The position numbers and the translations under genes were made by a program. From the IMG/VR virus record IMGVR_UViG_3300017962_000036, positions 1 to 36,975 of that record: a stretch of DNA of 36,975 nt; one strand, written 5' to 3'. The notes under the pieces are model-generated. The model saw only the letters and a list, made by a program, of their open reading frames with translations. It had not been told where the DNA came from and searched no databases. This stretch comes from a virus. Shown here piece after piece: positions 1 through 30,300 of this stretch. Every line of letters starts with the position of its first letter. Position 1 is the stretch's first letter.

Positions 1-41
1 CTGATATTGAGGATCTCCTCCATGTTTTCTTCTAGGCTCAT
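1..41 (-). CDS. Start of the next late gene, cut by window edge (possibly small terminase gp16)
   Basis: An ATG at 41-39 overlaps the TGA stop of gp15 as ATGA, and 13 codons stay open to the window edge, reading MSLEENMEEILNI. The tight stop-start overlap matches other junctions in this operon. An AAGGA lies about 11 bases before the ATG, longer than ideal. In T4 the gene after 15 is 16 (small terminase), and an acidic N-terminus fits that, but 13 residues cannot identify a family. The product name is therefore inference from gene order only. Confidence 0.55.
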   Translation of the reverse strand, partial: MSLEENMEEILNI

Positions 42-838: not shown

Positions 839-1779
839 TAGAAGACATCAGTAAAGTTTCCATATTCGCCAAATGGATTCCTCTCTGTAAAGTCGAGAAT
901 GTCATCCGCTTCAACTTCTATGTATTTATTATCATCATATTCACTATTGCTGTCATCAATATTGACAGTAGGACTTTGATTTCCTATAATGTATACACCA
1001 TCACTAGTGTATGAAGATCCACTTTGTTTTAGTACAGCTTGTCCTTCTGCAAAGTCTCCAGTAATATTGATTAGTTTCAATGATCTAGTTGGTGCATCCC
1101 AGTCTGCTACCTTAGCAGTTATACCAGTTGGAGTATATGTTGTATTACCTAACAACTCACCAACAGTGTGATATTCTATAATATCATTTTGATAGTAGTT
1201 GCCAGTTCCACCTTCATCCAATACAAGAGTAATGGAGTAATCTGTTTCTAGTGCGTCATCATCAATCTCAGGAATTCCAGTATTGAAATCATCGCTACCA
1301 ACATCATAGATTTCACAAGTTAGAGTATAGAAATATACTTTACCTAACTGATAGAAAGGTTGTTCTCTTTCTACAAATTTTATTTCATATATATCTTCTG
1401 TTAGTGGGAAGTATATTAGATCACCTTCATTGGGTCTTGTCATAATTTCTAGATTTTTCAATCTAGGTGCTTCTTCATCCCATCGTCTTGCGGAGATAGT
1501 AATCCTGATTTCATCAGTAATCTTTAGACCAAACTTACTGATAAATTCTGAAGTATCTCCAAATCCTTCTACGTTTTGTAAGAACGCTTCTATAACTATT
1601 TTCTCATTGAACTCTGAGAAGATAATGTCACCAAGAACTCCATCTTGAGTTGTCTTTCTAGAGAGATAATAGACATCACTACCGAAGAGCTTGATCTGCT
1701 CATCTACTAAATCTTGAACTAGGTTTTGTTCCCCACTATCATTTTTTAGATAGAGTGGAAAGTAATGACTGGTAGGCAT
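838..1779 (-). CDS. 14: Neck protein, gp14-like
   Basis: This 313-aa protein sits between gp13-like and gp15-like genes, exactly as in T4, where gp14 (256 aa) joins gp13 to form the neck that closes the packaged head and receives the tail. The N-terminal half (start MPTSHYFPLYLK, then EQNLVQDLVDEQIKLFGSD near residues 18-36, and the RRWDEEAPRL region near residue 100) is the pattern of cyanomyovirus gp14. The protein is longer than T4 gp14; the extra length is a C-terminal extension, about residues 170-300, of acidic beta-rich sequence ending in RNPFGEYGNFTDVF. The start ATG lies one base after the gp13 stop, and only a weak GGATAAG precedes it. The identity rests on recognised sequence and on context. 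Confidence 0.9.
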   Translation of the reverse strand: MPTSHYFPLYLKNDSGEQNLVQDLVDEQIKLFGSDVYYLSRKTTQDGVLGDIIFSEFNEKIVIEAFLQNVEGFGDTSEFISKFGLKITDEIRITISARRWDEEAPRLKNLEIMTRPNEGDLIYFPLTEDIYEIKFVEREQPFYQLGKVYFYTLTCEIYDVGSDDFNTGIPEIDDDALETDYSITLVLDEGGTGNYYQNDIIEYHTVGELLGNTTYTPTGITAKVADWDAPTRSLKLINITGDFAEGQAVLKQSGSSYTSDGVYIIGNQSPTVNIDDSNSEYDDNKYIEVEADDILDFTERNPFGEYGNFTDVF

Positions 1780-1780
1780 C

Positions 1781-2581
1781 TTATCCGATCATGTCCATAG
1801 GTGGAATAGCATACTTGCTGAGGACTTCACTTTCTATTTGCATAATCTCTCCAACAGCATCTTCATACAACTGTCTTCCATTCATGGTAATACCACCAGG
1901 AAGTTGTACGTTATTAAACTTGATCATGTTTTGACCCCACTGTCTTTTGATTAGAGCAGTAGCGTATCTCTTCAAGAACATATCATTATACATTTCGGTT
2001 GCGTCTGTAGGATCAACAAGACGATGTGCCTCAATCAATAACCAAGTATCCTCTTTGAGGAATGCCTTATTGATATCAAGATATAAACGATCACGACGCA
2101 TTGTGTATCTGAACTGCTGGAATGATCCATTGTTGAGGACCATATCCAGTGTCTCTAGATACTGCTTGTTCATATAGTAGTTGAGGATATCTAGTGATCC
2201 AAACGCATACAGATCGTTCAGGAACAACTGATACTCAACACCAAAAAGGTTAGAACGGATTGAGTTGCTGACTAGACCAAATACTCTTGTAATGCCAACA
2301 ACGTGATTAGGAATAGGAATATAATTTGTTGCCTCTTCCCAATTAGTAGTTCCAGATGTTGTAGTTAGTTCTCCATCAAATCTTGTTAGATCGTCAGCAG
2401 TAATTTTGTGTCTTAGGTAAGCACGCTCAGCACCATTGTAGCAGTTCTCTTGAAAAAACTGAATGGCATCATCAATCAGATCATCAACTTGATCATCATC
2501 AACGTTGATTTCTAATACTGGTGCGCCTAATTTTCTTAGGCAGTAATCAGTAAACTCTGCCCTAGATGCTGGTTGAGCCAT
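1781..2581 (-). CDS. 13: Neck protein, gp13-like
   Basis: This 266-aa protein (T4 gp13 is 309 aa) begins with a recognisable cyanomyovirus gp13 sequence: an N-terminal segment containing FTDYCLRKLGAPVLEINVDD, an acidic helix DDQVDDLIDDAIQFFQEN (about 26-43), and a C-terminal KRQWGQNMIKF. It also carries the block of aromatic, helical residues LYAFGSLDILNYYMNKQYLE. gp13 and gp14 form the neck complex on the portal after packaging. The start is preceded by AGG repeats (GTAGGTTGTAAGG) and, 23 bases further up, by a GATAAATA late-promoter motif, so gp13-14-15 can be transcribed as a unit from its own promoter. Confidence 0.92.
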   Translation of the reverse strand: MAQPASRAEFTDYCLRKLGAPVLEINVDDDQVDDLIDDAIQFFQENCYNGAERAYLRHKITADDLTRFDGELTTTSGTTNWEEATNYIPIPNHVVGITRVFGLVSNSIRSNLFGVEYQLFLNDLYAFGSLDILNYYMNKQYLETLDMVLNNGSFQQFRYTMRRDRLYLDINKAFLKEDTWLLIEAHRLVDPTDATEMYNDMFLKRYATALIKRQWGQNMIKFNNVQLPGGITMNGRQLYEDAVGEIMQIESEVLSKYAIPPMDMIG

Positions 2582-2603
2582 CCTTACAACCTACTTTATT
2601 AAG

Positions 2604-2611
2604 TATTTATC
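2604..2611 (-). promoter_or_regulatory. Late promoter motif GATAAATA before gp13
   Basis: Reading the minus strand, TTGATAAATAC fits the T4/cyanophage late consensus NATAAATA. It lies in the 28-base gap before gp13 and overlaps the TGA stop of the 177-aa gene. A small inverted repeat (TACTT/AAGTA with a 4-base loop) begins in its last two bases. Such motifs are rare elsewhere in the window: I saw four others inside coding DNA and four in about 225 bases of gaps. Confidence 0.65.
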
Positions 2612-3143
2612 AAAAGAAGGTAGAGAAGGAATATGCTCCTCCGCCAACTGGAGCAACCGTATAGTCAGCAATCCATTCGGCAGTATCAACTTCTACATAT
2701 CTTCTATTACTTCGTCTTCCACTAGCACCACCAGTCTGAATAATACCAACCTCAACGTTAGCTCCAGATAGTGCTGCTAGAATATTGGCATTCCAGGTAA
2801 ATGATATGGTTTGACCTGTGGTAGATGATACCGTAATATTATTACTAGATGTTCCTGTAGAACTTCCAGACTCATAGACAACTAACTGAACTGTTGGATT
2901 ATTTCCACCGCTAGCATTTTTCTTTACAACTGCCCTAAAGGTTTGTAAGTTTGCTCCACTAGTTAGAGTGTCTGTTGGTGATGGAAAAGAAAGAATTATT
3001 TCAGTTGCTCCACTAGTATCAGCAGTAGCAAACGTTCCATCAGCATTAGCAACACCTTCATCCAAATTTGCAATTACAGCGTCATTGTTAAATCCTACAG
3101 GAGTTCCTATTACTGCATCAGGTAATAAAGTTTCAGTTGCCAT
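2610..3143 (-). CDS. Virion structural protein, beta-sandwich type, 177 aa
   Basis: A 177-aa protein rich in Thr, Ser, Gly and Val with no signal peptide or membrane segment. From about residue 65 the sequence alternates short beta strands (FRAVVKKNASGGN, then VQLVVYESGSS, then ISFTWNANILAAL) and ends with an EWIADY segment. This jelly-roll-like pattern recurs in many phage appendage proteins and probably marks a structural or decoration protein. The start lies two bases after the stop of the 46-aa gene upstream. The terminal TGA is part of a late-promoter motif for gp13. The function is unknown; it could be a fibre tip or a neck decoration because it abuts gp13. Confidence 0.75.
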   Translation of the reverse strand: MATETLLPDAVIGTPVGFNNDAVIANLDEGVANADGTFATADTSGATEIILSFPSPTDTLTSGANLQTFRAVVKKNASGGNNPTVQLVVYESGSSTGTSSNNITVSSTTGQTISFTWNANILAALSGANVEVGIIQTGGASGRRSNRRYVEVDTAEWIADYTVAPVGGGAYSFSTFF

Positions 3144-12199: not shown

Positions 12200-12222
12200 A
12201 AATAATACTGTTAGTATTATTT
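12200..12222 (-). promoter_or_regulatory. AT-rich hairpin before the 74-aa gene
   Basis: On the minus strand the gap reads AAATAATACT, AAC, AGTATTATTT: a perfect 10-bp inverted repeat with a 3-base loop. It is followed by TG, TT and then ATG. Its 5' arm overlaps the GATAAATA late-promoter motif, so RNAs from upstream would carry the full hairpin next to the start codon. RNAs starting at this promoter would lack most of the 5' arm. It could instead be a weak terminator. Confidence 0.6.
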
Positions 12223-12225
12223 ATC
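12218..12225 (-). promoter_or_regulatory. Late promoter motif GATAAATA before the 74-aa gene
   Basis: The sense sequence TTGATAAATAATAC matches NATAAATA. It lies in a 28-base gap and shares bases with the TGA stop (12226-12224) of the 646-aa gene upstream. Transcription would begin just before the 3' arm of the adjacent hairpin. Confidence 0.6.
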
Positions 12226-14195: not shown

Positions 14196-14579
14196 TTAGT
14201 AAGTTCCATAGTCTAAAGCATCATCATCAATATTATCAGATCTATCAACTATTTCAAATGGTGAAACATATTCATGCTTTTGTAATGATTCATTCCAAAC
14301 TAAAACATAGTTATTATTTCTATTTGATGTATCGACATCATTAGAACCAGATAATGATCCTGCTACTGGTAAACTATAAACATGAGCTTGTTGGGTTTCA
14401 TCCCAAGTCACAACGTATTGATCTAATCTACCAGAAGTGTTGACATCATCAAGTGTGGACAAATTTCCTTCTAGCTGCTGAGGAGCTTCATCTACGTCTA
14501 CAATTTGTTTTCTATCTGTTCTTGTAAAAGTTACATTATAATTATTTGTGCTGCTTACTGTAACTTGATACTTGCTCAT
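14196..14579 (-). CDS. Small fibre-module protein with two repeats, 127 aa
   Basis: A 127-aa protein with two copies of one module: residues about 43-70 (LDDVNTSGRLDQYVVTWDET, HVYSLP) and 80-107 (NDVDTSNRNNNYVLVWNESL, HEYVSP). The module resembles the repeat of longer phage fibres of the form DVDT..L..YVLVWD....K.V. The C-terminal NIDDDALDYGTY ends in the GTY seen in the 646-aa protein. The ATG overlaps the upstream TGA (ATGA), so it is translationally coupled to the 117-aa gene. Probably a short fibre segment or fibre connector; not a known family I can name. Confidence 0.8.
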   Translation of the reverse strand: MSKYQVTVSSTNNYNVTFTRTDRKQIVDVDEAPQQLEGNLSTLDDVNTSGRLDQYVVTWDETQQAHVYSLPVAGSLSGSNDVDTSNRNNNYVLVWNESLQKHEYVSPFEIVDRSDNIDDDALDYGTY

Positions 14580-14929
14580 AGTACTCCTGGCATTACTGTG
14601 ACCACTCCTTCAATTACTTTATCCGTTGTTCCTCCAGGACTAGTAATAAAAAGATTCCATACATATCTTCCTTTTTTGAGGTCTGTTGTTTTTTGTACCA
14701 ATGATCCTCCACTGTTTGCCATAGAGAGTTTTACTTCACCAGTAGTAACATCAGTTACAGTAGCACCTAAACTATACTTGGTTGTTGTAGTATAATTTCT
14801 TGCCATATATGCAGACACAGCATATCCAGTCATATCTAGAAAGTTTCCATTCTCATCTCTTAGGTTGAATGAAACTTCCCAGTCAGCACCAATCTCTATT
14901 TGTAGATTTACTGGTATAGCAGTAGCCAT
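14576..14929 (-). CDS. BppU-like beta-sandwich structural protein, 117 aa
   Basis: A 117-aa protein with the pattern seen in the N-terminal domain of phage upper-baseplate and related structural proteins: GADWEVSFNLRDENGNFLDM, TGYAVSAYMAR, TTGEVKLSM, KGRYVWNLFITSPGG, and a C-terminal EGVVTVMPGVL. It is predicted to be an immunoglobulin-like beta-sandwich. The Shine-Dalgarno AGAGGGG lies seven bases before the ATG and forms the 3' arm of a hairpin with a late promoter in its loop. Its translation may therefore depend on which promoter made the transcript. It is coupled by ATGA to the 127-aa gene. Confidence 0.82.
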   Translation of the reverse strand: MATAIPVNLQIEIGADWEVSFNLRDENGNFLDMTGYAVSAYMARNYTTTTKYSLGATVTDVTTGEVKLSMANSGGSLVQKTTDLKKGRYVWNLFITSPGGTTDKVIEGVVTVMPGVL

Positions 14930-14933
14930 GAAA

Positions 14934-14969
14934 ATACCCCTCTATACTTGTATTTATACAGAGGGGTAT
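14934..14969 (-). promoter_or_regulatory. Hairpin sequestering an SD, with late promoter in its loop
   Basis: The arms are 14969-14960 and 14943-14934 (sense ATACCCCTCT and AGAGGGGTAT), a perfect 10-bp stem with a 16-base loop. It lies three bases after the stop of the 60-aa gene. The 3' arm holds the AGAGGGG ribosome binding site of the 117-aa gene and is followed by TTTC and ATG. The loop contains TATAAATA. The stem plus Ts also fits a rho-independent terminator for transcripts arriving from the 4038-aa gene. Confidence 0.75.
14951..14958 (-). promoter_or_regulatory. Late promoter TATAAATA before the 117-aa gene
   Basis: A perfect match to the T4 late promoter -10 element, in the 43-base gap, the longest in the window. 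A start about six bases downstream would fall at or just before the AGAGGGG arm and give a short, unstructured leader. Confidence 0.78.
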
Positions 14970-14972
14970 CTA

Positions 14973-15155
14973 TCAAGATTCTTCGCTTGGAGCGTCTGGT
15001 GAATCATGCTCTAATAAATTTAGAGTCTCTAGACCACCAGTAAGTTTTGTTCTATACTCTTTTGCTTTTACTAGATTTTGTTCTAGTTCTTTAATTTGAC
15101 TATCAGTTTGAGCAATTTGATCTTCAAAATTTTTTCTAAGTGTTGCAGGATCCAT
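14973..15155 (-). CDS. Small coiled-coil protein, 60 aa
   Basis: A 60-aa protein, mostly one predicted coiled coil (RKNFEDQIAQTDSQIKELEQ, LVKAKEYRTKL, about residues 7-40) with an acidic, probably disordered tail ending SPDAPSEES. It has its own late promoter upstream (TATAAATA at 15187-15180), but no clear Shine-Dalgarno, and its ATG lies in a 14-base palindrome. A hairpin or terminator follows its stop at once. This helical design recurs in small phage assembly or spacer proteins, but no family can be named. Confidence 0.75.
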   Translation of the reverse strand: MDPATLRKNFEDQIAQTDSQIKELEQNLVKAKEYRTKLTGGLETLNLLEHDSPDAPSEES

Positions 15156-15179: not shown

Positions 15180-15187
15180 TATTTATA
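15180..15187 (-). promoter_or_regulatory. Late promoter TATAAATA overlapping the stop of the 4038-aa gene
   Basis: The sense sequence CTATAAATATTAG contains a perfect T4-type late element. The TAA at 15185-15183 inside it is the stop codon of the 4038-aa gene. The promoter lies 25 bases before the 60-aa gene. Confidence 0.75.
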
Positions 15188-18100
15188 GACCCTGTGCGAA
15201 CGCAAACTCGCTAGACAGGTGAGCAATATCCGAAATAAAGATTCTAGAATTACTATCTAAGAACACACCGTTTGCATCAAAGAACATTATATAATACAAA
15301 CTAGAATTTAGAAGGTTCTTGTACAATACTGCATAACCAGAAGTGCCTGCTTGAGCACCATAAACACTATACTGTTTATAATTTACATTATTATTGAATG
15401 AAATAATAGCTCTTTCATCTTCAACACCTTCCTCATATGGCGCAACATTTAGAACTCCATTGGGATCTATACCAGTGTTATTAAGTAAAATTAGTCCTCC
15501 TTGCAGTTCTGCTAAGTCTGAATAGAATTTGCCATTTTGTGTGACGGTTACTGTATCTATTTCACCTTCTTCATTTGTTCCGCAAGTTAATAGTGCATCT
15601 AAACCAAACTCAGAACTTACCCGACAATTACTAAAAGTAGTCAAAGGTTCATATCCAGTTCCAGCACGAACAATTCTAGGTTCAATAAGACCTTCTTCAA
15701 ACAATGATAATGGAGCAGATGTAAAGATAGGATCGCCAAATGTTGGAGATTCTGGATCATTATCAGTTCCAATTTGTTCTGGAGCAGTTCTAAAGTCTGG
15801 TACAATCAAACCATTATATTCATAATAGTTGCATGTTTGACAACCAATAACTTTGTATTCGTTCAACTCGTTTGTTTCTACTGGAGCACCAGACTCGTAT
15901 TTGAAGTATACTAAGTTTGTACCATCCCATGCAAGTAAATTTCCTTCAAGGACAGAAGACTTGTATCTATAGAGAGTTGTATTACCGACATTTTCAATAA
16001 CTCTGAACGTTCCATTGTCAACATCATATTGTTCTGGATTCAGATCACTTGTTGCTGGTAATGGTAAAGCAGAAAGTACAAATCTTGTCTGTAGAGTTAT
16101 TGGGTTATGTACAGCAGCAACGTACTTATTAAATCCAGCATATTCAATTGCTGTTATATGTTCGTCTTCTGAAATTAGATTTAGAGACAAATCAATACAT
16201 GATCCTACTCCAGTTACAGCAACACCGTTATAAGTAAATCTAGTTCCAACATCAAATCCTGCAGGAGCACCAATGTCTGTCCAATTTGTATCTTCTACAA
16301 GGTCAATAGTATACTCTTGACCAGATATCATTTCGGTTGCTGGAATTTCTTTATCACGATATAGTTCTGTATCAATCCAGACTCTAGCGTTAGGTGAATA
16401 TCTTATAAACTGCCTTCCAGTATTGAGATTCGTACCTGCACAAATAAATTGACCATCGTTAAATGTCAATGCTTTGACATCAAATTCTTCGGTACTTTCT
16501 GGAGAAGTAATATCAGAGAAGTTTTCATATTCGTAAATTTCAATAAATGGACTTTGGTATACTCCTTGGAAGAATACTCTATATCCTGCCTCAACAAACT
16601 TACCAAGACCATAAGTTACTGCAGTAGTTTTGATTGGAGTAAAGACATTGTTGTATCCTTTTATTCTGTCAGCAACAACATCAATATCTAGATTTAGTCC
16701 TGTTATATTTGATAGAACAAAGTTTTTATAGAAATTAGTTGAAGATGCAATATCATAAATCAGAACATAATTATAATCATCAAACTCTGCTTCAATTACG
16801 GTGTTAGTATTGTTTACAGTAATTGAGTACCATACAATACTATCTGCTGAAACTGAACTTGGATTTGTGCTGGTATAGTATACTAAATTATCTCCTTGAG
16901 CAAATGTATAACTACCAATCCTCTTTATAAATTTCACATTTGTTTCAGATAGCAAACTGTAATCTACTCCATTACCAGAAGAAATATCAGTAATAGATAG
17001 TGATTTGAACGTTCCATTTGCAAATGCAATCAAAATATTAGAACTTGGTTCATCGTAAGATATGTGATTGATTGTATTTGCTAAAGTTCTATTACTCCAG
17101 TTTTCTCCATCGAATGACCAGTAAAGACTTGTTCCAGAGAATGAAGCAAAGAAAGGAAGATCTAGATATAATCCAGAAATAATTTTCTCTACGGGAGTAT
17201 TAGCAAAGAAAGTTGGTTGTGTGACAACTTCATTCCAATAAATTGGTCTGTTCTTTGAAATAAAGTTTCTTTGTTTGAATACAAATCTACCAAGAGTTTT
17301 ACCAACAGATGTTGTAAACATCTCTCTAGTTGCTCTGGTCTGAACGGTTTCAATATCATAGATTGCTCCGTCAGTTCCATCAGCAATAACACTAGTGTTT
17401 ACAATCTGCTGTCTCTGATTATTCTTGAATCCTCCAAGTTCAACAGCACCAATTTCAAAATCTCTTGTAGAGAATCCATCTTTACTAGCAATGTACATAA
17501 TGTTAGAACTAGGCGTTGAACTAGAGTTAGAATTTATTGTCAGTGATGTTTCACTAAAAACATTAGAAACATAATATTTTATGGAACTTCTGTTGATATC
17601 GATTGGTTCACTGGGATTAGGAGAAATAATAAATGAAACGGTATCACCAATAAAGACATTGTTTGTGTCTCCATTGACTATAGTTACATTGTACTTATAT
17701 CTTCTTACATAAAATCTTAGATTGCTTGGATCACCGAGCAATGATTGTGTCAAATAAACTACATTGTTAACATAATCAATTGATTTTACTTTTGTTCCTG
17801 GTTTTATATTTGTACCAGTAACAAAGAGATCCTCAGAATGCAATTCATTTACATCAGATAAGATTACATATGAATTGATATCTCCAGCCTCGCTAAATGA
17901 AGCGGAGGTTTTTAGTGATTTCAAAACAGAGTAAACATATGATCGACTATAACTGCTAGATGTTATAACAGCTTTATAGTTATCAAACAGAACTGCTTTT
18001 TGTGGTCCATAAACCAAACCTCTAACGTTAGGAATTCTTTGATAATCAGTTCTGTAGTCTTGTGATTTTACAATAACAGTATCTTTATAAGTTGAAGCGA

Positions 18101-21100
18101 TCTTTAGTGGTGTTGTAAGATTTACCTTAATGTAATTTTTTTCTAGATCAATCAATGTTCCAAATACATTTGGAGCAAAAGGAAGAACTACATCGTAATA
18201 TGTGTTAGAAGCATTGTTTATAGATAATTGTTGATCTTTATACCATCCATAAGAATAGTTGGAAGTGTATGGTTCGGTTCTGTTAGATGGTAATTGTATA
18301 TCAAAGAAATTGTATTGAGTTCCAGCATCATCAAGATTGAATGCCGATCTACCATATGGTCCATTGATATCGCCAGGAGCAGAAGATAAATCTAGGCGAG
18401 CAAGGAATCCTCCTCTACTAGAATTATTTTTATATGTGAATCCTGTCAAATAACATACATCGTTTTCTACATATATCGATTTATTTCTATTTCTAATATC
18501 TACCAAAATACCATCAGATAAATCAGAACCAAATTCTTTTGCTAGCAATAAATTTCCATTAGTATCTAATTTATAGAGTATCAAATCACTACCAGTATTA
18601 CCACTGGTAGTATACCCATAATGATAAGTAGTTCCAGTAGTTTTATCAATATCAATTCCTCCATAAGAGTATTCAGATGCATTTGCATCAAACACTTTAC
18701 CCCATTGATATGTGCCATTAGTATCTAACTTCATAACAAACGTATAGTAAGCTTGGTATGTTGGATCGCTATTGTATGAATAACTATATCCACCAATGTA
18801 TACGTTATCATTATCATCTAATACTAAACCATTTATATATTCAGCTCCATTATATGTAAGGTCAATTTGAGAATATACTTTGCTCCATATTGCAGTAGGA
18901 TTATTTGGATTTGAAGTAATGTCAAATTTGTATATGCCCAATAACTGATCATATATCGCTGCAGCAAGATACATGTATCCTTGAGAATCAAACTTGATAT
19001 CTCTAATTCTCCATTGATACTCACTAGTACCAATACGCCAATCATCTAATAATGTTAGGGTGGTACTATCTAATTTTACAACCATTCCACCTTGGTATGC
19101 TCCTGTCAAACTCATACCAGTATTAATCTGGTCATTAGATCCATGCATACCAGTAAGGAAATTGAAATCGTTGTAGTTCCAAACTACTTGATTGTTATCA
19201 GTAAATGTAACATTGATTTCTTTCAGGTCAATATTATCCATATAAGTTGACCAGTAGTAACCACCAGCAAATATACTGAAATAGTATTCATTAGAATCAA
19301 ATGCTTGAATTGTAAATGTATGCTGAGGTGATGCTGGTTTTACATTTGTCTTATCATAATAAATTTCCATTTGTGAAGTAGATGGGTTGTAGTCCATCCA
19401 ATAGAAAACATTCTGTTTGATACCAACAAATGGTGCAGTACCAGATAGAATATTCAGATCAACTGCCTGTTGTTCGAATGGAGTAGTTCCTGAATATCCA
19501 TCTGTTTTATAATATCTAACAGTATTATCAGTATCTCTCCATACATCACCAGTAAAAACAAATGAAGCATACTCCAAACTACTACTTGTATGTTTTTGTA
19601 ACCAGTAGTAACTACCATGCTTATCATTTTGTTTTGTCCAACCAATACCAAATACTCCAGACTGAGTATTATTATTTGGATCAGACATTTCAATATTGAA
19701 TGAAATGCTAAATGGTCTATTCCATAGATACTTATTTTCTGTGTAGAAATTATTGGTTTGGTAATTAGCATTATAATGGCACATTCTCAAGTCTTTACTA
19801 TTGACTATGCTATATCCAGAACTTTGATTATCATGACCATCATACAAAGTATGAAGAGCAAATCTCCAACCACTTGTATTTGGAACAGATGGTAAATCCC
19901 ATCTATAATGTCTGCCAGAATAAGTCCACGAAAGACTTGCTACTCTTTCTCCTTCAAAAGAAAATGCACCGCCACCACTAGCAGAGTTTGCTCCAGATGA
20001 ATAAGAATTATTATTAATTTCTGTAGAAAGTTCTACTCTTGTTTGTTCATTTTCATAGAATCTCAACTCGTGGAATTTAGTTGGAGATCCTAGAGACCCA
20101 CTACTACTTGTGCTTCCTTCGTAAACTACATGATATATTCTATTAGGAGCAGTTCCTGTAATACCATATCTAATTCTTTGACATGAGTAATTAGATCTAC
20201 ATCCAAAGAAAAGTTTATCTTCTGCTGGACTAGTACCTGACATATTAGTTATGGCAAGTGGATCGTATGCTCCAAATATTATTGCACCTTTAGTGCTCAC
20301 ATATGCAGTATTATGAAGTCTTCCTTGGAAATTGACACTCCAGGGTAGAGCAAGTTCCCAATAACCATTGTAATTAGTACCTACTGTTGGAGTTTCTGAA
20401 GATGACCAATCTCCTGGGAATAGTCCATTAAATTTTGTACTTCCAGTAATCCATAGATTTCCAGTGCTATCAAATTCAAACCCACCATATGGATATTCTT
20501 CTCCACCAGAACTTATTTTTTTGTCTAGTAAAACAGTTCCATTTGTATCATATTTTGCTATGTGAATAGAATTATCAGTACGATTTCTAGTCAAACAATA
20601 TATCTGGTCATTATAAACCTGCACTCCTTCTGGACGATAATCAAAATCAAATGTACTCTCTGCTGCTTTTGCCCAAACAACATCTCCAGCAGAATCAAAC
20701 TTGATTAAGAACTGCCTATCTCCAGTACTAGATGATTCATAATATCCAGTTGCTAGTGTATAAATGTTTCCTAAAGAATCTTTTGCTACACCGCAAGTTG
20801 ATAACTGGTAATTTGATGATGGATTTCCAAATGTCGTAATGAAGTTAGCTGCGTTTTCTTCTCCCTGTGTTCCTTCTGGATATTCAAGCGATTGAATTTC
20901 ATAATCATTTCCTTCAAATGACAAAATATAATTTCCAGTATTTTTGATTCCAGTCTCTGGATCATACTTTGGTTCTAGACCTGTCAGACTTTCTGGATCT
21001 AGAATGGTATCAGAAAGGAATAGTGTTTTGGAGAATTTTTCTGACGCAAAAGAAACATATTTTGATGTCAAACATTTCACTGGTTTAATATCCAAGCATC

Positions 21101-24100
21101 CAGACAGAGGAATGTATTTGAATCCTCTACCGTTATTGAATTTGTTTGCAGCAGTAACCAAACCATCATTCAAACCAGCAAGAATTTGGGAGTCAACAAT
21201 GTACATCTTTCTGAAAGGAGTACATTGGTCATTCGAAATAGATGTGTTTACTGTTGGTTTGTTTATGTAGAAACTTGTGGAGTCTTTTAGTAGTGAGACT
21301 TTGTAACCAGGACCAATTGCATGTGTAGTTTGAATTAGTAATTCATCACCAGGAGTCAACTCTGTTATAATACTACCAGCTTCCAATTCTAGGGTAGATG
21401 AATCGATATAAGTACATTCTTTAGTAGGATCAATTTTTATTGAGAAAATATTATTTACATTAATCTGATCAGTTGTGGGACTTATAGCAGACATTCCATT
21501 GAAGATATATGGATTATCAACTTCTAAACCAGCAACTTTAATTTGAACAGATGCTGATGGATTTGGTTGATAAGTATCTGTTACAACTACACGAATATTT
21601 GAAAGTTCATCTGATCCATTATAGATAATAGAATTTTCTTTGATAGCATTATATGGACTGAATGAAATTATTGCTCCAGCAGAATGATTTTCTTTGATAA
21701 TACAATCACCAAAATATTTGTTTGTTCTGTATCCATAGTAAATAATTTCATCGTCAATTCTTATGTTTCCAAACTGTGGCAATGATGCATCAATTGCATC
21801 TGGAATCATATACCTGAGACCAGTAGATTCATTTGTTAGATTTTGTGCCTCGTAAGTTTCAGTTGAAACTTTTGTATAAGAAATTCCATCATCTGATGTA
21901 AACGCCTGGAATGCTGATGGGAATGATCCGTAGTATGAAGTACCACGAACAATATCATATGCATCTACTAACACAGGATTTGCAAATTCCATTATGATAG
22001 TTGTAGATCCAACAGAACCATGGTTGAAATCAATAAAATTGCTATCTAGATTACCATCGGTAATGTAACCTATTTGTGTTGCATTCGCAGATGTTCCAGG
22101 TGCAGTAACAGTGACATTTGTATATGGAACTTGAGTACCATCGTAATAAAGTCTGATCTGACCAAGAGATGTGTAAGAATAATTTGTAAAATGAGTTTCT
22201 GTAATAACAAATTTATAAAATCTTCTTGCAGTAATTGGATCTCGAAGTACTTCAATTTTTGAATCGGAAGCACTAATAGAATTTTCTAATTGTGATTGTG
22301 GATATCTTACTGCTATCTTTGTTTGGGGAATTGCCCAGAACTGATTTAGTTCTGTTACTGGTAATGTAAATGTATATGTGTTGTTATCAAAAGTACGACC
22401 AGTATAATTATATAAAGTATTTCCTATTGTAACTTGCCCAAATGTTGGAACTAATTCTTCTTCTAAGTTTTCTGGTGCTTGGTTGAATGTATCTTGAGTA
22501 GTAATACTATTGAAACCAGTAATACTAAAAGTTTCTGGTTGGTTTTTATTATTATTTACTTGAGCATCCAGAGTTGCTTCTGTTGCGTTACCACTAGAAT
22601 TACGAGTAACATCAATAATTGTTCTAAATTCTGGAGAGGTAATTCCTGGACCATATACTTTTTGTCCTATTGTTATACCTATTGCTGGGTTTGAAAATGT
22701 AACAACTTCTTTAAAAGTCGTTGCTTCAAAATCTTGATATAATTGTTGAGGAACTCTTGCTTTTAGTTTGTATCCAGATCCTGTTGGGAACGTAATTGGC
22801 GATCCACCTTTTGTGGCAGAAATACTTATATCAGAATTAGAAACAGAATTTGTTGAAATTACATAATATACTACTCCTTCGGTTAGAAGTGAAGATAATG
22901 CAGATGGTATATTAGTGAAGCAAACTGGAACATCAATTGCAAATTGTAGACTAGGGAAAGCAAAACTATTTACAAAATTAGTTTGAATGAGTTCAGTTCC
23001 TGCACTAGATTCTATAGTATATGTTTTTTGATCTGCTCCTGCTATGTGGAAATAACGAGACTCTTCATTCTTATCTAATAACCAATAGACCGAAGGATCA
23101 TACTGGTCAGGAACATAGTAAGTAGATAGTTCGATATCACCTTCATTCCATTGAGTTGCAAACCAGACAACTTTACCATTATCTAAAGAATATCTAGTAT
23201 TCTTGTTTAAGTTTGGAATAGGATCGATTCGATATTCTTGTTCTACTGGAGTAGTGTTTGATAAATCTGAAATTTTTCTAATGTTTACAATTTCACAAAC
23301 AGAAGGAATACCCCTCAAGTACGTGTTATATGTTTCAATGGTCTCTGGATCTTCCAGTGTTACATTATTTACATAAACATAATAATACTCAACTTCTGTT
23401 GGATGATTTTCAAAACCTATAACGGGAGCATTATAATCATTGCCAGTATATAAAATTACATCTGTAATATCTTCATATACAGGATTGAAATAGCTGTTAG
23501 ATATTTTAGAGATATGTGAAATATTTGCTTGTAAATTTCCAATATCTGCTTTTTTCAATTTGAATCTAGCACATGGTTCTCCACCAAATGCTGCTAGTGA
23601 ATAATCATAAATGATAATGTCTGAATATTTTTGTCTCTTTGTTCTGGTTTTAATTTTTACTGGACTATAATATCCACTACCAATTAACCATGACGAACTT
23701 ATTCCACCAACCCAAATTGGATTTGGATTTAGATACACATAAGTTCCCCATGTATATTGATAAACCCTGCTGACAGTAAATGGTGTGTCTGGAAACGCAG
23801 ATGATGTAGCAATTGAACCTGTCGTAATTTTATCTCTATCGTCTACACCATTTTGTATAAAGAAATATGCATAAGAATATCCATTACTATATCCCCAAGT
23901 ATTATTAATCGAAACACTTCCTGGATATAATTGTAGTGGATACTCAGGACCATACTGTTCTAATGACCAGATAACTGCTCCATCATTTGGAAGATCTGGT
24001 CCGAATATTACATCACCAACACCAATACCAGAACTATCATTTAGTACAATAGTTTCATTGTCGGAAATTGGTTCATATAAGTACTTTAATCTAGTAGAAG

Positions 24101-27100
24101 GAATACTTTCGTTTGAGAAGAATTGGTCTCTAGATGCTTGGATCAAAAACGTTTCTGTTTGAGTACGAGGAGCAAAATAAGTTTCATCATCATCTTGAAT
24201 TCCTGTAATTTGATTTCTTGAAGAAACAAATGCTTGATACACAGTTCCATACAAATCTTCGTATGCTCTATTACCGATTGGATATGGTTCTAGGTAATAT
24301 TTTATTTGTATAGTTTCGGTTGTATATGATGCATATTGATATTGTTTAACTTTTGCAAATCCTTTATCATTCACTCCAAACATAGCAATATAAGGAGTCT
24401 GTCCATCTGCAGTTGAATTGAACTCTATCGTTGCAGTATTTCCAACCATTGCACCTTCTGCAATATTTGGATCAAATATAGTAGTAGTAGATTCCAAGAA
24501 TACTTTTCTATTGATTATATCGATAGAAGATATTGTAATTGTACTGGAATTTTCTAGTCCACTGCATATAATTCTCATCTTTGGTGCTAATCCAGCAACC
24601 TCATCAAGTTTCAATGAATTTTCTAAGTAATTTACATCTTCAACTACCCTTTCAAATGTAAGACCATTTGGATACAATCCCTTTGAGAAGAAGTAATTTG
24701 GTCCATACAATGGAGTCTGATATCTATAACGATATGTAGAGTCCGAAGTTATTTTTCCAATAGTTGTTTGGTAATCATTTGTATCATATGGTCTTTCTCT
24801 CGTATATGTTCCTTGTCTCCAATAAAACTGTTTAGTAGTTCCTATTACAGTTCCGTCTGAATTGAATGGTTTGTTTCTTGCTTCTTCTGGTACGACATAT
24901 TCGTATATTAGTTTTATAACACTTGTACTGTCAAATCCCTGGTGCGCTACTGCAGTAGTACCACACTCACCACGAGTAACACCTATGAGTTCATATCTAT
25001 TTTCAGAAACTTCTGCATAATTTGTATAACTGATGATCTCATTATCAATCTGGATATAGTATTTGAAATTATATGTAGTACCATTCCATTGATAGGAAGT
25101 TCCATAATTATCTTCTCTTGGATATTCAACATAATAATATCTAGTTTCAGTTTGAGTCAGGATAGGTTCTGATGTTCCGATTCTTTCATTCCAAGAAATT
25201 GATTGTACATCACCAACTAAGTTTGCTAATATAATATTCTGAGTAGTTCCTCCACTGTTGATATCAGACATCAATTGTGGTTTATCTGCATTAGCAGTTC
25301 CTTTTGGATAAAGATTGATATACTTAATTGGAGTACCTGCTGTCAATCCATCTGTGCCACGCTCTGTATTGTAATCTTGATATGAATTCAATCTAAGAAT
25401 TTCGTATGCTCCGCCGCCTTGGGTACTGACAGTGGGACCATTACTTGAGGTCGTTTCGTACGTATAAATTCTGATTCCTATTCTGTCTTTAGAACGTACA
25501 TCATTACCACTGTTTGCATTATTGAGATTAGTGTCTCCATAAGCATAAGCATAATATGTTTGTTGTAATTCATAACTGTCATCGACGCTATCCCACCGTG
25601 GAGTATAAAGTCTTCCATACCAACGCCAATTTGCACCGCTCATATAAAAGTAGTATGTTGATGGCCAATTAGTAGCGTTGATATCGCTAGTTGCCCAAGC
25701 ATACATGATGCTGGTGGTTCGATTTCTAAAACAATCTAAAACTCCGCCAACTGCGGATGCTTTATCTACAGCATCATCTACACTAACAAGATCATATTCA
25801 AAATTAAATCCAATAGAAGTATAAATTCCCCTAAACTCTATCGATACTGGTAGATTTGGTATAGTATCTAATACCCAATTAGAACTAAGTTGTTTTAGTG
25901 TATTTTTATATAATACAGAATATTGTAATATATTATCCTGATTTATGCTAACTCTAGATGGATACTTGAAATTTATATAATACTCATAGTATGTTTCTCC
26001 ATCATCATTTGTTTTTGTCGCAACTTTATTGTATCCACTAATAGGAGTAGAATCCCACTGATAATTGGGGATATTAGAATCACCACTATCTTCCCATACT
26101 TGGGTGTAAAAAGAATACTCTTCGTCTTTTGGAGTTGGTATTGCTACCGATAAATCTGTTTTTGTTTGTACTTTTATAGATCTTGTATATTTTGGATAGT
26201 TTAGATCTCCAGAAGTAGCAGATATCACATTGCAATGAATTGAATCTCTAAACAGATATCCATAGTATTGTCTTCTGATCTGAGACGATGAACCTCTATT
26301 TAATTTTGACCAAAGTGAATTACTGCCTCTTTCAAGAATAACCTCATCACCAGATACTATTGGTGTATCTGGAAATACTGATAAATATATGTTGTAAAAT
26401 TCTGAAGAGTCTGCATTTTCTTCAATGAAAGTTACATAAGCATTTCTAAAAACAGAACTAACAATAAAATCATTGATAGTGATTCCAGTATCTAATTGTG
26501 ATTTTTCAATTGTAATATTATAACCAGATAATTGAATGTTATCTAGACGAATGTCATCAATTCCATCTACTCCACCAAATTGACTTCCCGAGATATAAAG
26601 GTCTTCATTAGCATTGTATCCACTACCAGATGAAATAATAGAAACTCCAACAACTCCATATGATCCACTAGCTTCAGAATCAGATCCTCCTTGTCCGTCG
26701 TCAACATCTTCGAAGTTTGGTGCTAAAACAACTAGAAATGTTGCACCAGTTCCGCCAGATGATGCAGGTTGATGTTCGCAAATATATTCAAAGACATCCT
26801 CTTCTAAAATAATTTCATGTAAAAGATTACTATCCCCATCAACACTATCGATGTTCAAACTTGTGTTATTTAGATCATAAACATTGCTCCAACCAGCAAC
26901 ACCATCAGTTGGAACTAATTCTACATCAGATATTAAAACTCTATATTGATCAATAAAATCTTTCCTAATCCAAGTTTGACTAAGATCACCAGTGCCACCA
27001 ACTGATCCTAAATTTCTTCCCAACCAATCAGTATCTGGGATTACTTTTGCATCTGTTAGTGTCGCGGTAGCAAATCTATTAAAATATTGCGCTCCAAGAG

Positions 27101-27299
27101 TTGTACTACCAACATTTTCTGCTTCTAAAGCATCATTCAAACTTATGAGAACTGTAGAATCGGTTGCCCAATTCTTGAAGTCCGCCATGTTGACGGAATC
27201 ATCAGTTTGTATTAAAATGTCTGCGGTTGATGGTAATTTACCTATAGAAGCTCTGGTGATCTTCTTGGAGAAAAACGATCTTGATACTACTGCCGACAT
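15183..27299 (-). CDS. Giant mosaic virion/adhesin protein, 4038 aa
   Basis: At 12.1 kb this single ORF takes a third of the window. It has no signal peptide or enzyme motif and is beta-rich, Asn/Ser/Tyr-rich throughout. Recognisable parts, in order: GSGYN motif (about 227); EIISYTNY...IGVTRGECG segment (about 750-785); GPGIT module (about 1525-1600); discoidin/F5-8C-like domain (about 1736-1830, DGNLDSNFIDF to FTSDDGISYTKVS); seven propeller blades of SBBP type (about 2153-2976, for example DSLGNIY, DSTGNLW, DDNDNVY, KLDTNGTYQWGKV) interrupted by a 450-residue insertion with a lectin-like part (about 2287-2736); BNR-like second propeller (about 3370-3650, YWSFDGENW); an EYTI/TNWTDIGA module (about 3655-3700); and a GTGYE segment near the C-terminus. 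It is probably a distal fibre or host-binding protein. The start follows a weak AAAAG. Confidence 0.87.
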   Translation of the reverse strand: MSAVVSRSFFSKKITRASIGKLPSTADILIQTDDSVNMADFKNWATDSTVLISLNDALEAENVGSTTLGAQYFNRFATATLTDAKVIPDTDWLGRNLGSVGGTGDLSQTWIRKDFIDQYRVLISDVELVPTDGVAGWSNVYDLNNTSLNIDSVDGDSNLLHEIILEEDVFEYICEHQPASSGGTGATFLVVLAPNFEDVDDGQGGSDSEASGSYGVVGVSIISSGSGYNANEDLYISGSQFGGVDGIDDIRLDNIQLSGYNITIEKSQLDTGITINDFIVSSVFRNAYVTFIEENADSSEFYNIYLSVFPDTPIVSGDEVILERGSNSLWSKLNRGSSSQIRRQYYGYLFRDSIHCNVISATSGDLNYPKYTRSIKVQTKTDLSVAIPTPKDEEYSFYTQVWEDSGDSNIPNYQWDSTPISGYNKVATKTNDDGETYYEYYINFKYPSRVSINQDNILQYSVLYKNTLKQLSSNWVLDTIPNLPVSIEFRGIYTSIGFNFEYDLVSVDDAVDKASAVGGVLDCFRNRTTSIMYAWATSDINATNWPSTYYFYMSGANWRWYGRLYTPRWDSVDDSYELQQTYYAYAYGDTNLNNANSGNDVRSKDRIGIRIYTYETTSSNGPTVSTQGGGAYEILRLNSYQDYNTERGTDGLTAGTPIKYINLYPKGTANADKPQLMSDINSGGTTQNIILANLVGDVQSISWNERIGTSEPILTQTETRYYYVEYPREDNYGTSYQWNGTTYNFKYYIQIDNEIISYTNYAEVSENRYELIGVTRGECGTTAVAHQGFDSTSVIKLIYEYVVPEEARNKPFNSDGTVIGTTKQFYWRQGTYTRERPYDTNDYQTTIGKITSDSTYRYRYQTPLYGPNYFFSKGLYPNGLTFERVVEDVNYLENSLKLDEVAGLAPKMRIICSGLENSSTITISSIDIINRKVFLESTTTIFDPNIAEGAMVGNTATIEFNSTADGQTPYIAMFGVNDKGFAKVKQYQYASYTTETIQIKYYLEPYPIGNRAYEDLYGTVYQAFVSSRNQITGIQDDDETYFAPRTQTETFLIQASRDQFFSNESIPSTRLKYLYEPISDNETIVLNDSSGIGVGDVIFGPDLPNDGAVIWSLEQYGPEYPLQLYPGSVSINNTWGYSNGYSYAYFFIQNGVDDRDKITTGSIATSSAFPDTPFTVSRVYQYTWGTYVYLNPNPIWVGGISSSWLIGSGYYSPVKIKTRTKRQKYSDIIIYDYSLAAFGGEPCARFKLKKADIGNLQANISHISKISNSYFNPVYEDITDVILYTGNDYNAPVIGFENHPTEVEYYYVYVNNVTLEDPETIETYNTYLRGIPSVCEIVNIRKISDLSNTTPVEQEYRIDPIPNLNKNTRYSLDNGKVVWFATQWNEGDIELSTYYVPDQYDPSVYWLLDKNEESRYFHIAGADQKTYTIESSAGTELIQTNFVNSFAFPSLQFAIDVPVCFTNIPSALSSLLTEGVVYYVISTNSVSNSDISISATKGGSPITFPTGSGYKLKARVPQQLYQDFEATTFKEVVTFSNPAIGITIGQKVYGPGITSPEFRTIIDVTRNSSGNATEATLDAQVNNNKNQPETFSITGFNSITTQDTFNQAPENLEEELVPTFGQVTIGNTLYNYTGRTFDNNTYTFTLPVTELNQFWAIPQTKIAVRYPQSQLENSISASDSKIEVLRDPITARRFYKFVITETHFTNYSYTSLGQIRLYYDGTQVPYTNVTVTAPGTSANATQIGYITDGNLDSNFIDFNHGSVGSTTIIMEFANPVLVDAYDIVRGTSYYGSFPSAFQAFTSDDGISYTKVSTETYEAQNLTNESTGLRYMIPDAIDASLPQFGNIRIDDEIIYYGYRTNKYFGDCIIKENHSAGAIISFSPYNAIKENSIIYNGSDELSNIRVVVTDTYQPNPSASVQIKVAGLEVDNPYIFNGMSAISPTTDQINVNNIFSIKIDPTKECTYIDSSTLELEAGSIITELTPGDELLIQTTHAIGPGYKVSLLKDSTSFYINKPTVNTSISNDQCTPFRKMYIVDSQILAGLNDGLVTAANKFNNGRGFKYIPLSGCLDIKPVKCLTSKYVSFASEKFSKTLFLSDTILDPESLTGLEPKYDPETGIKNTGNYILSFEGNDYEIQSLEYPEGTQGEENAANFITTFGNPSSNYQLSTCGVAKDSLGNIYTLATGYYESSSTGDRQFLIKFDSAGDVVWAKAAESTFDFDYRPEGVQVYNDQIYCLTRNRTDNSIHIAKYDTNGTVLLDKKISSGGEEYPYGGFEFDSTGNLWITGSTKFNGLFPGDWSSSETPTVGTNYNGYWELALPWSVNFQGRLHNTAYVSTKGAIIFGAYDPLAITNMSGTSPAEDKLFFGCRSNYSCQRIRYGITGTAPNRIYHVVYEGSTSSSGSLGSPTKFHELRFYENEQTRVELSTEINNNSYSSGANSASGGGAFSFEGERVASLSWTYSGRHYRWDLPSVPNTSGWRFALHTLYDGHDNQSSGYSIVNSKDLRMCHYNANYQTNNFYTENKYLWNRPFSISFNIEMSDPNNNTQSGVFGIGWTKQNDKHGSYYWLQKHTSSSLEYASFVFTGDVWRDTDNTVRYYKTDGYSGTTPFEQQAVDLNILSGTAPFVGIKQNVFYWMDYNPSTSQMEIYYDKTNVKPASPQHTFTIQAFDSNEYYFSIFAGGYYWSTYMDNIDLKEINVTFTDNNQVVWNYNDFNFLTGMHGSNDQINTGMSLTGAYQGGMVVKLDSTTLTLLDDWRIGTSEYQWRIRDIKFDSQGYMYLAAAIYDQLLGIYKFDITSNPNNPTAIWSKVYSQIDLTYNGAEYINGLVLDDNDNVYIGGYSYSYNSDPTYQAYYTFVMKLDTNGTYQWGKVFDANASEYSYGGIDIDKTTGTTYHYGYTTSGNTGSDLILYKLDTNGNLLLAKEFGSDLSDGILVDIRNRNKSIYVENDVCYLTGFTYKNNSSRGGFLARLDLSSAPGDINGPYGRSAFNLDDAGTQYNFFDIQLPSNRTEPYTSNYSYGWYKDQQLSINNASNTYYDVVLPFAPNVFGTLIDLEKNYIKVNLTTPLKIASTYKDTVIVKSQDYRTDYQRIPNVRGLVYGPQKAVLFDNYKAVITSSSYSRSYVYSVLKSLKTSASFSEAGDINSYVILSDVNELHSEDLFVTGTNIKPGTKVKSIDYVNNVVYLTQSLLGDPSNLRFYVRRYKYNVTIVNGDTNNVFIGDTVSFIISPNPSEPIDINRSSIKYYVSNVFSETSLTINSNSSSTPSSNIMYIASKDGFSTRDFEIGAVELGGFKNNQRQQIVNTSVIADGTDGAIYDIETVQTRATREMFTTSVGKTLGRFVFKQRNFISKNRPIYWNEVVTQPTFFANTPVEKIISGLYLDLPFFASFSGTSLYWSFDGENWSNRTLANTINHISYDEPSSNILIAFANGTFKSLSITDISSGNGVDYSLLSETNVKFIKRIGSYTFAQGDNLVYYTSTNPSSVSADSIVWYSITVNNTNTVIEAEFDDYNYVLIYDIASSTNFYKNFVLSNITGLNLDIDVVADRIKGYNNVFTPIKTTAVTYGLGKFVEAGYRVFFQGVYQSPFIEIYEYENFSDITSPESTEEFDVKALTFNDGQFICAGTNLNTGRQFIRYSPNARVWIDTELYRDKEIPATEMISGQEYTIDLVEDTNWTDIGAPAGFDVGTRFTYNGVAVTGVGSCIDLSLNLISEDEHITAIEYAGFNKYVAAVHNPITLQTRFVLSALPLPATSDLNPEQYDVDNGTFRVIENVGNTTLYRYKSSVLEGNLLAWDGTNLVYFKYESGAPVETNELNEYKVIGCQTCNYYEYNGLIVPDFRTAPEQIGTDNDPESPTFGDPIFTSAPLSLFEEGLIEPRIVRAGTGYEPLTTFSNCRVSSEFGLDALLTCGTNEEGEIDTVTVTQNGKFYSDLAELQGGLILLNNTGIDPNGVLNVAPYEEGVEDERAIISFNNNVNYKQYSVYGAQAGTSGYAVLYKNLLNSSLYYIMFFDANGVFLDSNSRIFISDIAHLSSEFAFAQGL

Positions 27300-27304
27300 T
27301 TCTT

Positions 27305-30300
27305 TTAGACATCAAAGGTGTTTACGTTGTAGAGAATTCTATCAGTACCATAGATGAAGTAGTTGATAATAAAATCTCCTACAACGCCATTCTCTCCCGT
27401 ATCAGTATTTAGCCAAGCATTCTTGATAGAATACCATCTATTGCCACCTGTAGAAGCAATTCTTTCTAACCCTTTGATAACTGTTCCTTCTGTGTTTTGT
27501 GTAGAAACATAGATAAATCCAGATACACCTAAGTTAGCAGTAAGAACGGTATCAGATAATCTTCCAATTCTTAGTAGTCCTTCGTCTGTATCTAATTCTG
27601 CTGTTGATGGTGAGTATGAGAAGTTTACACCATTTTCCAAATTGTAAACAAAGTTTCCACCTGACAATGCACCAGCTTCATAATTACCATCATCATCAAC
27701 ATAAATTTGCCACGTTGTTGGAGCAGGTGATCCAGTTAGTTTATTTGCATATGCCCACTGGAATAGTCCAGCAGGTGTGACAAACACATCATCAATTGAT
27801 GCTGCTGATGGACCCCAGTTTTGTGTTGAAGATACTTTCTTAGTAAATCCAAACTTATCTTCTGTAGCAACTGGGAATCTAAACAAAGCATTTGGTTGTG
27901 CTACCTGAGAATCTTTTAGTTCAAGGCTAGCACCATCTTTTAGTTTGAGAACGTTGGAAACTTCAATATCAGCAACAGTTACTTTGTCATATGTAACCGT
28001 CTTAGAAGACGCTTCTGCTAACTGAATACGTGCGGATGACTGCAAGATAGTAGAGAATGCTTCTAGGTTTCCAACTCCGCTACTGGAAGCAGCAGTGATG
28101 TATAGATAATCATTTGGATTGATTAGTCTAGTCTGAGCACTAGTTTTTAGTTTAGGTACATTGACTGTTTCTGACTGACTACCCTTGGTGTCAATAATTT
28201 GAGAACCAATGAAGAAGTCTCCATTTGAGTTAGTGCCACTAGATCCGTTGAATCCACCATCAAGTTCTTGAGTTTGAGCATTAATAGTTTGCTGTTTGTT
28301 TAGAACAATAGTTTGGAAAGCAGGGAAACCAGTTGAATAGTTACCAGGACCAAATCCAACATATTCCCAAGTGTGACCAGATGCTCTAATATTACTTGGT
28401 CTATGTAGTTTGACTGTAATTGGTGCTAATCCATCCTGATCTTCAAACAATAGCATTCTATTGCTATATGCAGATCCGTCGTTTCTGGACGTTTCATTTA
28501 CAACAGTGAAATCATCAAACAAATCATCATCAATACCAATATCATTTTCAATATTTGATCCGCCAACTTTTTTGTATGGTTCGTTTGATTTGAAATTAAC
28601 TCTCTTCAACTTGACACCAACTAAAGCAGAATCTCCTGCTGCTATAGCATTACCACCTGTTAGTTTTTTGAATGTAATTTGGTTTGTTGAAGTCGATGAT
28701 ATTCTATAGAAAGTATCTGTATCAATTACAGATGATGTGCCTACAGAACAGAATTTTACAATATCGCCTACAACTAGATTATTAGTTCCAGCAGTTAGAG
28801 TTACAGTTGTGCCAGCATTAGATCCAATAGTATACAAAGAAACACCAGAATTAATGTTTACACCAGACTGTAGATACGTGACAAAAGTTTCTATAGTTTC
28901 TGCTGTAGTAGAATATTCTGATCTTCTTTCATAACCATCTGCCTCTAAATTGGATGCATCTACAGTCACAGTTTTGATTGTTGGAGTTGTGTCATAGATG
29001 CTGTATGCTTTTTTAGGATTCCATTCTGGTTTATCAAGATTTACATCTGGATATAAGAAATATTGATTCTGTGCATATCCAATTGGTAATTCATCATTTG
29101 TTCCCAAAATATTCTTGACATTAGCATTACTAACGGTTAAGATATAGTATCCATCCTGCTGGTTGTATTGATACTCAACTTGAGTTTCTACATTATAAAT
29201 GTAATAACTATTAGCATATGATGGTGCTTGGTCAAGTGATAACTTGATTACATACTTTCTTTCGGGTGGTTTTGATATTGTTTCTTTTGGAATTTTATAA
29301 AGAACTCTCCAGATATGATCTGTTTGTAATCTATTGTCTGGTGTTCTCTTAACAAACAAACTTGGGAAAGAAGAATTTTCTCCAAACTCTCTACTATCAA
29401 GAGTATTCAACGCATAATCCGTATTAGAATCATACCTCATCGTGATTCTCTTCAGCAATGTATTTTCTGTAGTAGAATCAATTGGATCTGCTTGAGAAAA
29501 ATCAGCGTTCAACTGCGTAGCAGCAAAAGAAGCAGCATCTACAAATTCATAGTAACTTCCATCACCTGCTTGTGACCAGTAAAATACATCATCATTTGCA
29601 ACAGCATCTTTGATGTAGATAACAACATGACCATAATATAGACCGCCTTGTGTCTCTGAATATTCCCATCCATAATACTGTCTAGTATCATTTTCGGGAA
29701 TAGAAATTGGAGTTGAATCTGCTGCAGTTTGATTTACATCTGCATCAATACAAACTTCTCCCTTTTCATTTTCATTTTCAGTAGCAGTTCCTTTTAGTCT
29801 TAGTCTTGCTTTAAATTCTTTCTGAACATCGGATCCAATATATGTTGGGAAAGAAGTATAAACATACTCATCAAAATCCGAACTAGTTTCATATTCTTCA
29901 GTTTGTGGATTGAAACCAATGTTTCTTCCTTTACCTAATAGATAGTTGATTCCATCTAATAGTAACCAACGTTTTTCTTCCGCAGTTCCTTTGTTTTCAA
30001 TGTACTCAGGAACTTCATCTTGACCATACAATCCATATGGGTTGTTTGGATTCTTGATGTAAATTTTACTAATTTTTGGTTTATCTGCTGTAGTAGCATT
30101 CTGCCATGTGGAGAATGTTCTTTGATCAATTTCACCAATGCCAATTGGTTGTGTTGTTCCGTAATTGATTCCTCTTGGGGGAATAACACCAATCAACTGA
30201 CCAGAAGAATCTTGATCAAATGCTACTCTCTTATAACCAGAACTTAGTGTAGCAATATTACCGAAGTTTGAGTTAGAGTTTGTAATTGATACGTCAGATC

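Follow-up and report, generated by a model that had tools for sequence, protein, structure and literature searches.

A hairpin that encloses a predicted late promoter in its loop and the Shine-Dalgarno (SD) sequence of a tail-fibre-assembly gene in its 3′ arm was found in a 36,975-base fragment of an uncultured, marine, T4-like virus in IMG/VR (this whole fragment is referred to as the window), and the element is probably best explained as a start-site switch of the T4 e, 49 and I-TevI type. This mechanism, already proposed in a preliminary description of the sequence, is favoured because the element matches or surpasses T4 e, 49 and I-TevII in layout and energetics. The evidence for the switch comprises the layout, the predicted RNA energetics, and the recurrence of such elements in relatives.

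Layout and gene neighbourhood of the element

All long genes of the window, including tail and neck genes of a T4-like phage, are carried on the minus strand, and two of them, encoding products of 4038 aa (15183-27299) and 2305 aa (27305-34222), make up half of the window. The element lies between a 60-aa gene and a 117-aa gene, where the minus strand from 14969 to 14927 reads ATACCCCTCT GTATAAATACAAGTAT AGAGGGGTAT TTTC ATG. The features are as follows.

14934-14969, minus strand: hairpin with perfect 10-bp arms, the 5′ arm being ATACCCCTCT (14969-14960) and the 3′ arm AGAGGGGTAT (14943-14934)
14959-14944, minus strand: hairpin loop of 16 nt, GTATAAATACAAGTAT
14951-14958, minus strand: predicted late promoter TATAAATA of the T4 gp55 type, within the hairpin loop
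14945, minus strand: predicted late transcription start at the sixth base past TATAAATA, immediately before the SD arm
14937-14943, minus strand: SD AGAGGGG, inside the 3′ arm, seven bases before the ATG at 14929
14930-14936, minus strand: U-rich spacer TATTTTC from SD to ATG, a possible weak terminator U-run
14576-14929, minus strand: 117-aa gene, 'L-shaped tail fibre assembly' (phrog_1084, E 2.5e-19; phrog_3304, E 9.7e-14)
14196-14579, minus strand: 127-aa gene, overlapping the 117-aa gene by 4 nt, with its own SD AGGAG outside the hairpin
14973-15155, minus strand: 60-aa gene (phrog_580), directly upstream of the hairpin
15180-15187, minus strand: second TATAAATA, before the 60-aa gene, with no straddling hairpin (-1.4 kcal/mol)
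15183-27299, minus strand: giant gene (4038 aa), upstream of the 60-aa gene
1781-2581, minus strand: head-tail adaptor family gene (presumably gp13 in T4 nomenclature)
838-1779, minus strand: head closure family gene (presumably gp14)
38-838, minus strand: tail sheath stabiliser family gene (presumably gp15)
2589-2621, minus strand: weaker second example, at the gp13 neck gene, with GATAAATA (2604-2611) between ACCTTCTTT and AAAGTAGGT (8 of 9 pairs)
12200-12225, minus strand: weaker third example, at a 74-aa gene, with GATAAATA (12218-12225) overlapping the 5′ arm of AAATAATACT-aac-AGTATTATTT

The perfect 10-bp stem, the 16-nt loop with TATAAATA and the SD AGAGGGG seven bases before the ATG were all found where the preliminary description had placed them. 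The anti-SD duplex of AGAGGGG was computed at -8.2 kcal/mol, and the perfect stem is followed by TTTC, or by TATTTTC if counting begins at the G4 of the SD. The window has only two copies of TATAAATA, each on the coding strand and lying in or at a gap between genes. The start at 14945 was placed on the assumption of T4 late-promoter geometry, and this spacing is supported indirectly by a peak of ATG codons exactly 5 nt past the promoter at homologous loci. In cyanomyoviruses, NATAAATA has been described as the late promoter, and relatives carry gene 55, for gp55-type late transcription (PMC2984593); in the window virus this gene would fall outside the fragment.

The order of large gene, small gene and 117-aa homologue recurs in several Kyanoviridae. 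The preliminary description derived the read-through RNA straight from the giant gene, which needs amendment, as the 60-aa gene with its own TATAAATA (15180-15187) stands in between. Nor would masking by the hairpin alone shut the 127-aa gene, as had been proposed: the SD of this gene is unmasked and, because it lies outside the hairpin, the gene could be silenced only via termination or translational coupling. Sigma-70-like sites in the window are not above chance, with no early promoter evident upstream of the hairpin, and an Rfam search of the window gave no match.

Predicted folding and comparison with T4 elements

RNA folding added inner and wobble pairs to give a stem of 16 pairs at -23.1 kcal/mol (z = -5.9; 0 of 200 shuffles were as stable), and the hairpin is the lowest-MFE 40-mer of the window when both strands are compared. 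Perfect 10-bp stems with loops of 3-20 nt number 3 in the window versus 0-6 per shuffled window, and the rarer G+C-rich ones number 1 versus 0-1 per shuffle; a perfect stem alone is not unusual, and what stands out is its coincidence with TATAAATA and a correctly spaced SD and ATG. The SD is paired in the stable hairpin of the long RNA, and the predicted late RNA keeps the SD and loses the 5′ arm. Folding of both leaders predicts that opening the SD would cost about 20 kcal/mol in the read-through RNA versus 1.3-2.9 kcal/mol in late RNAs starting at 14946-14943, in agreement with the masking on read-through and the release on late RNA that the preliminary description had proposed.

The straddling energy, i.e. 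the folding energy gained when the RNA segments on either side of the predicted late start are joined, is -20.6 kcal/mol for the window element. The same calculation gave -15.5 for T4 gene 49, -13.2 for I-TevII, and -10.0 and -12.8 for e, which has two late promoters; the test is imperfect, as soc, a textbook case, scores only -3.5.

Hairpin structures of this kind have been reviewed for T4 e, soc, 49 and I-TevI (PMC3014915) and for I-TevII, I-TevIII, segB and Aeh1 mobE (PMC2988022), with direct experiments cited for e and I-TevI (PMC3014915, PMC2988022). In e and 49, a hairpin in the early RNA masks the ribosome site and a late promoter lies within it (PMC3014915), and the T4 cases belong to transcription units that are early or middle (PMC2988022). 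The window element shares with e and 49 an SD or start region in the 3′ arm, a predicted late RNA without the 5′ arm, and a promoter (TATAAATA or AATAAATA) between or overlapping the arms, and its straddling energy is stronger than theirs (-10 to -15.5 kcal/mol). Unlike e and 49, it has late structural genes as neighbours and precedes a tail-fibre-assembly gene of a marine phage. The layout of T4 I-TevII, CCTCGTATAAATATGAATACGAGG, is almost the same as that of the window element, but unlike the genes with homing endonuclease switches (I-TevI, I-TevII, I-TevIII, segB and mobE), the window gene is no endonuclease and lies in no intron or mobile cassette. The likeness to T4 drawn in the preliminary description is supported for the geometry and energetics of e and 49, but not or only partly for the timing: the module is late, with no early promoter signal above chance, and the early/late logic of T4 is therefore not directly transferable. 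A literature search for published transcription-start maps of a T4-like cyanophage gave nothing usable.

In the mechanism that we infer, together with the activity of the promoter, its start point, the existence of a read-through RNA and the translational effect, RNA polymerase arriving from upstream would transcribe the whole inverted repeat, and the nascent read-through RNA would form the hairpin and bury the SD of the 117-aa tail-fibre-assembly gene, which would not be translated from this RNA. RNA polymerase carrying the late sigma factor would start at the TATAAATA of the loop, just 5′ of the SD arm, and the resulting RNA, devoid of the 5′ arm, would not fold and would be translated. Because the SD would be masked in the former RNA and the 5′ arm would be missing from the latter, the 117-aa gene would be on only from its own late promoter and uncoupled from its neighbours.

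The probable role of the hairpin is to shield one late gene from other late RNAs, or else to protect it from weak early read-through, since the neighbours are structural genes, the 60-aa gene immediately upstream has its own TATAAATA, and sigma-70-like sites do not exceed chance; such insulation is likely to operate in part through termination. Masking is rated the main effect because the SD sits in the arm and the U-run TATTTTC is weak, with termination as a possible effect. The two are compatible, as both would leave expression to the nested late promoter.

Recurrence at homologous genes and elsewhere

NATAAATA precedes the gene in nearly all of the 61 distinct leaders of 117-aa gene homologues in IMG/VR. 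A hairpin around the late promoter was found in 7 of these leaders, belonging to the window's clade (represented by identical copies only), L012/L013 and L050/51/52/67, whereas 54 have the promoter and no hairpin, so that conservation of both arms in relatives, named as a check in the preliminary description, is not or only partly supported. The hairpin is thus not conserved by descent across the family, but appears to have arisen several times at this gene; because most homologues have the late promoter alone, the switch is not essential to the gene. Five unrelated hairpins were identified within the family, namely those of the window, L050/51/52/67, L012/L013, the cultured Melnitz methylophages (L006/L291; the same plan with a different sequence), and L093, which was found through the DNA pattern alone and whose gene was then placed in the same family (phrog_1084, E 1.3e-22). 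L050 (CACACTTTCCTTATAAATACTAAAAAGGAGACTGTGTGAATG) carries the SD AAGGAG in its 3′ arm (-11.3 kcal/mol, z -3.75), and most of the cultured cyanophages lack the hairpin.

Around the 117-aa gene family, straddling energies of -10 or below occur at 4 sites versus 0.8 expected, and of -12 or below at 3 versus 0.35 expected (80 sites), with no excess at -4; these counts, and those for gp13 given below, include related sequences and are not formal probabilities. As the excess is found only in the strong tail, weak straddling energies are not evidence, including those of the two other window cases before the gp13 gene (-5.2 kcal/mol) and the 74-aa gene (-6.5 kcal/mol), both within the chance range.

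At homologue loci (L027, L033, L057, L059, L071, L088, L340, L365, L373, L006 and others), the spacing between the end of NATAAATA and the ATG peaks sharply and separately at exactly 5 nt, with 11 sites, beside which 3 sites lie at 6 nt and none at 0-4 or 7 nt. Late mRNAs from such sites, of which TATAAATAGTTAT-ATG is an example, would be leaderless and start from the A of the ATG. The significance of the peak is provisional, since a peak was also seen for one of four control octamers (9 sites at 4 nt).

In IMG/VR, exact-pattern scans were run for complementary arms flanking ATAAATA and, as a control, for arms in which the 5′ half was reversed. Complementary and control stretches numbered 34 and 10, respectively, for AGAGGG arms, and at least 120 and 35, respectively, for AAGGAG arms, i.e. 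a 3- to 4-fold excess over the non-complementary controls (at least this for AAGGAG). Two internal controls were added because complementarity alone favours hairpins of any kind. Among the matches listed, a gene start 3-14 nt past the 3′ arm was present in 66 distinct cases (10 + 56) on the promoter strand versus 20 (2 + 18) when the opposite strand of these symmetric hairpins was read. The AAGGAG stems among the matches listed extend past the six fixed pairs by a mean of 3.6 bp inward and 2.8 bp outward, compared with an average of 0.6 in each direction in the non-complementary AAGGAG control. Genes behind such elements, again among the matches listed, include those for gp13, tail tube, baseplate hub, terminase and HNH endonucleases. 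Many of the genes listed (L146, L149, L207, L215, L219, L226, L237, L244 and others) look homing-endonuclease-like by eye; a Pfam HNH domain was confirmed in L099 and L149, and L207 fell below the curated cut-off.

A set of 42 distinct gp13 leaders, each with a late promoter, was fetched by protein similarity, with no hairpin preselection, and straddling energies of -10 or below were found in 9 of them versus 1.8 expected when upstream flanks were swapped among leaders. All 12 pairs are kept in one gp13 subclade (100% paired), with one pair varying among G-C, G-U and A-U; covariation in this subclade was rejected, because 240 of 500 shuffles did as well and the variation is too small. The gp13 leaders of L320, L321, L353 and L302 contain an A-run, an SD complement, TATAAATA, an SD, a U-run and the ATG within ~35 nt, and look like a terminator, a promoter and a ribosome site in one palindrome.

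Alternative explanations and significance

The hairpin could instead serve mainly as an intrinsic terminator for the operon before it. The next late promoter would then occupy the loop for economy of space, and SD masking would be a by-product; we consider this reading unlikely. Like intrinsic terminators, the element has a stable stem followed by a short U-rich run, and clear forms occur at the same junction in L012/L013, which read CCCTTCGTAT-AAATATC-ATACGAAGGG-TTTTTT (CGAAGGG-TTTTTT) with the SD outside the stem. L023 has a terminator immediately upstream of the promoter, L116 and L120 are similar, and TTTT occurs shortly before the ATG in 7 of 17 hairpin leaders versus 5 of 86 leaders without a hairpin (Fisher p 0.0005); spacer T content as a continuous measure did not differ between hairpin and other leaders (p 0.17). 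Ending transcription would also silence the 127-aa gene. In the window, however, the SD itself forms the arm, the promoter fills the loop, which is long when only the perfect stem is counted, and the strong stem is followed only by TATTTTC, a short, interrupted U-run; moreover, a terminator scan of the window, confined to loops of 3-8 nt, did not report the hairpin, and the stems of many relatives end in the SD or run towards the start codon with no U-run. The suggestion of a terminator in the preliminary description thus gains support from relatives (the TTTT enrichment and L012/L013) and loses some through the weak U-run of the window.

That a chance inverted repeat overlaps a late promoter and an SD would fit the equal frequency of perfect 10-bp stems in shuffles and the absence of the hairpin from most homologues, but is highly improbable for the most stable 40-mer in the window, with a straddling energy of -20.6 kcal/mol where 0.35 sites at -12 or below are expected among 80, and with independent recurrence within the same gene family. 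Structured 5′ leaders are known to influence phage mRNA stability, and the hairpin might accordingly be a stability or processing element (an RNase site or 5′ end protection) and not a translational one. A 36-bp inverted repeat has been noted before psbA of cyanophage S-PM2 (PMC5931967), but the late transcript in the window would contain no hairpin and the arm coincides with the SD, making such a role very unlikely.

A broader reading, which we offer tentatively and with some doubt, is that elements of this kind at virion genes of T4-like phages may be three in one: a terminator acting on the incoming RNA would hold a late promoter in its loop and have the SD for its 3′ arm, and the U-run would double as the spacer between SD and AUG. 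They would insulate late genes from each other, not early from late, and would have had many separate origins, at gp13 neck genes as well as tail-fibre-assembly genes. An example is AAAATCTCC-TTATAAATAAGTAA-GGAGATTTTTAAATG in L320, with others in L302, L321 and L353, and the window would hold a form in which SD masking is strong and the U-run weak. A literature search on overlapping terminators found nothing usable.

The start-site switch, our preferred reading, is of a design known as a kind; as judged from sequence comparison, the window instance is both new and unusually strong, and it belongs to a recurrent pattern, of which no description in virion genes of marine phages was found in the literature searched. 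Start mapping and reporter tests are feasible, because the Melnitz methylophages are cultured and have the element at the same gene. With the switch, a regulatory design known from a few T4 genes and from homing endonucleases would extend to structural genes of marine phages that are abundant, and the control comparisons point to a design that is common and has been repeatedly invented across T4-like phages. It also raises the testable question of a late gene's need for shielding from other late transcripts.
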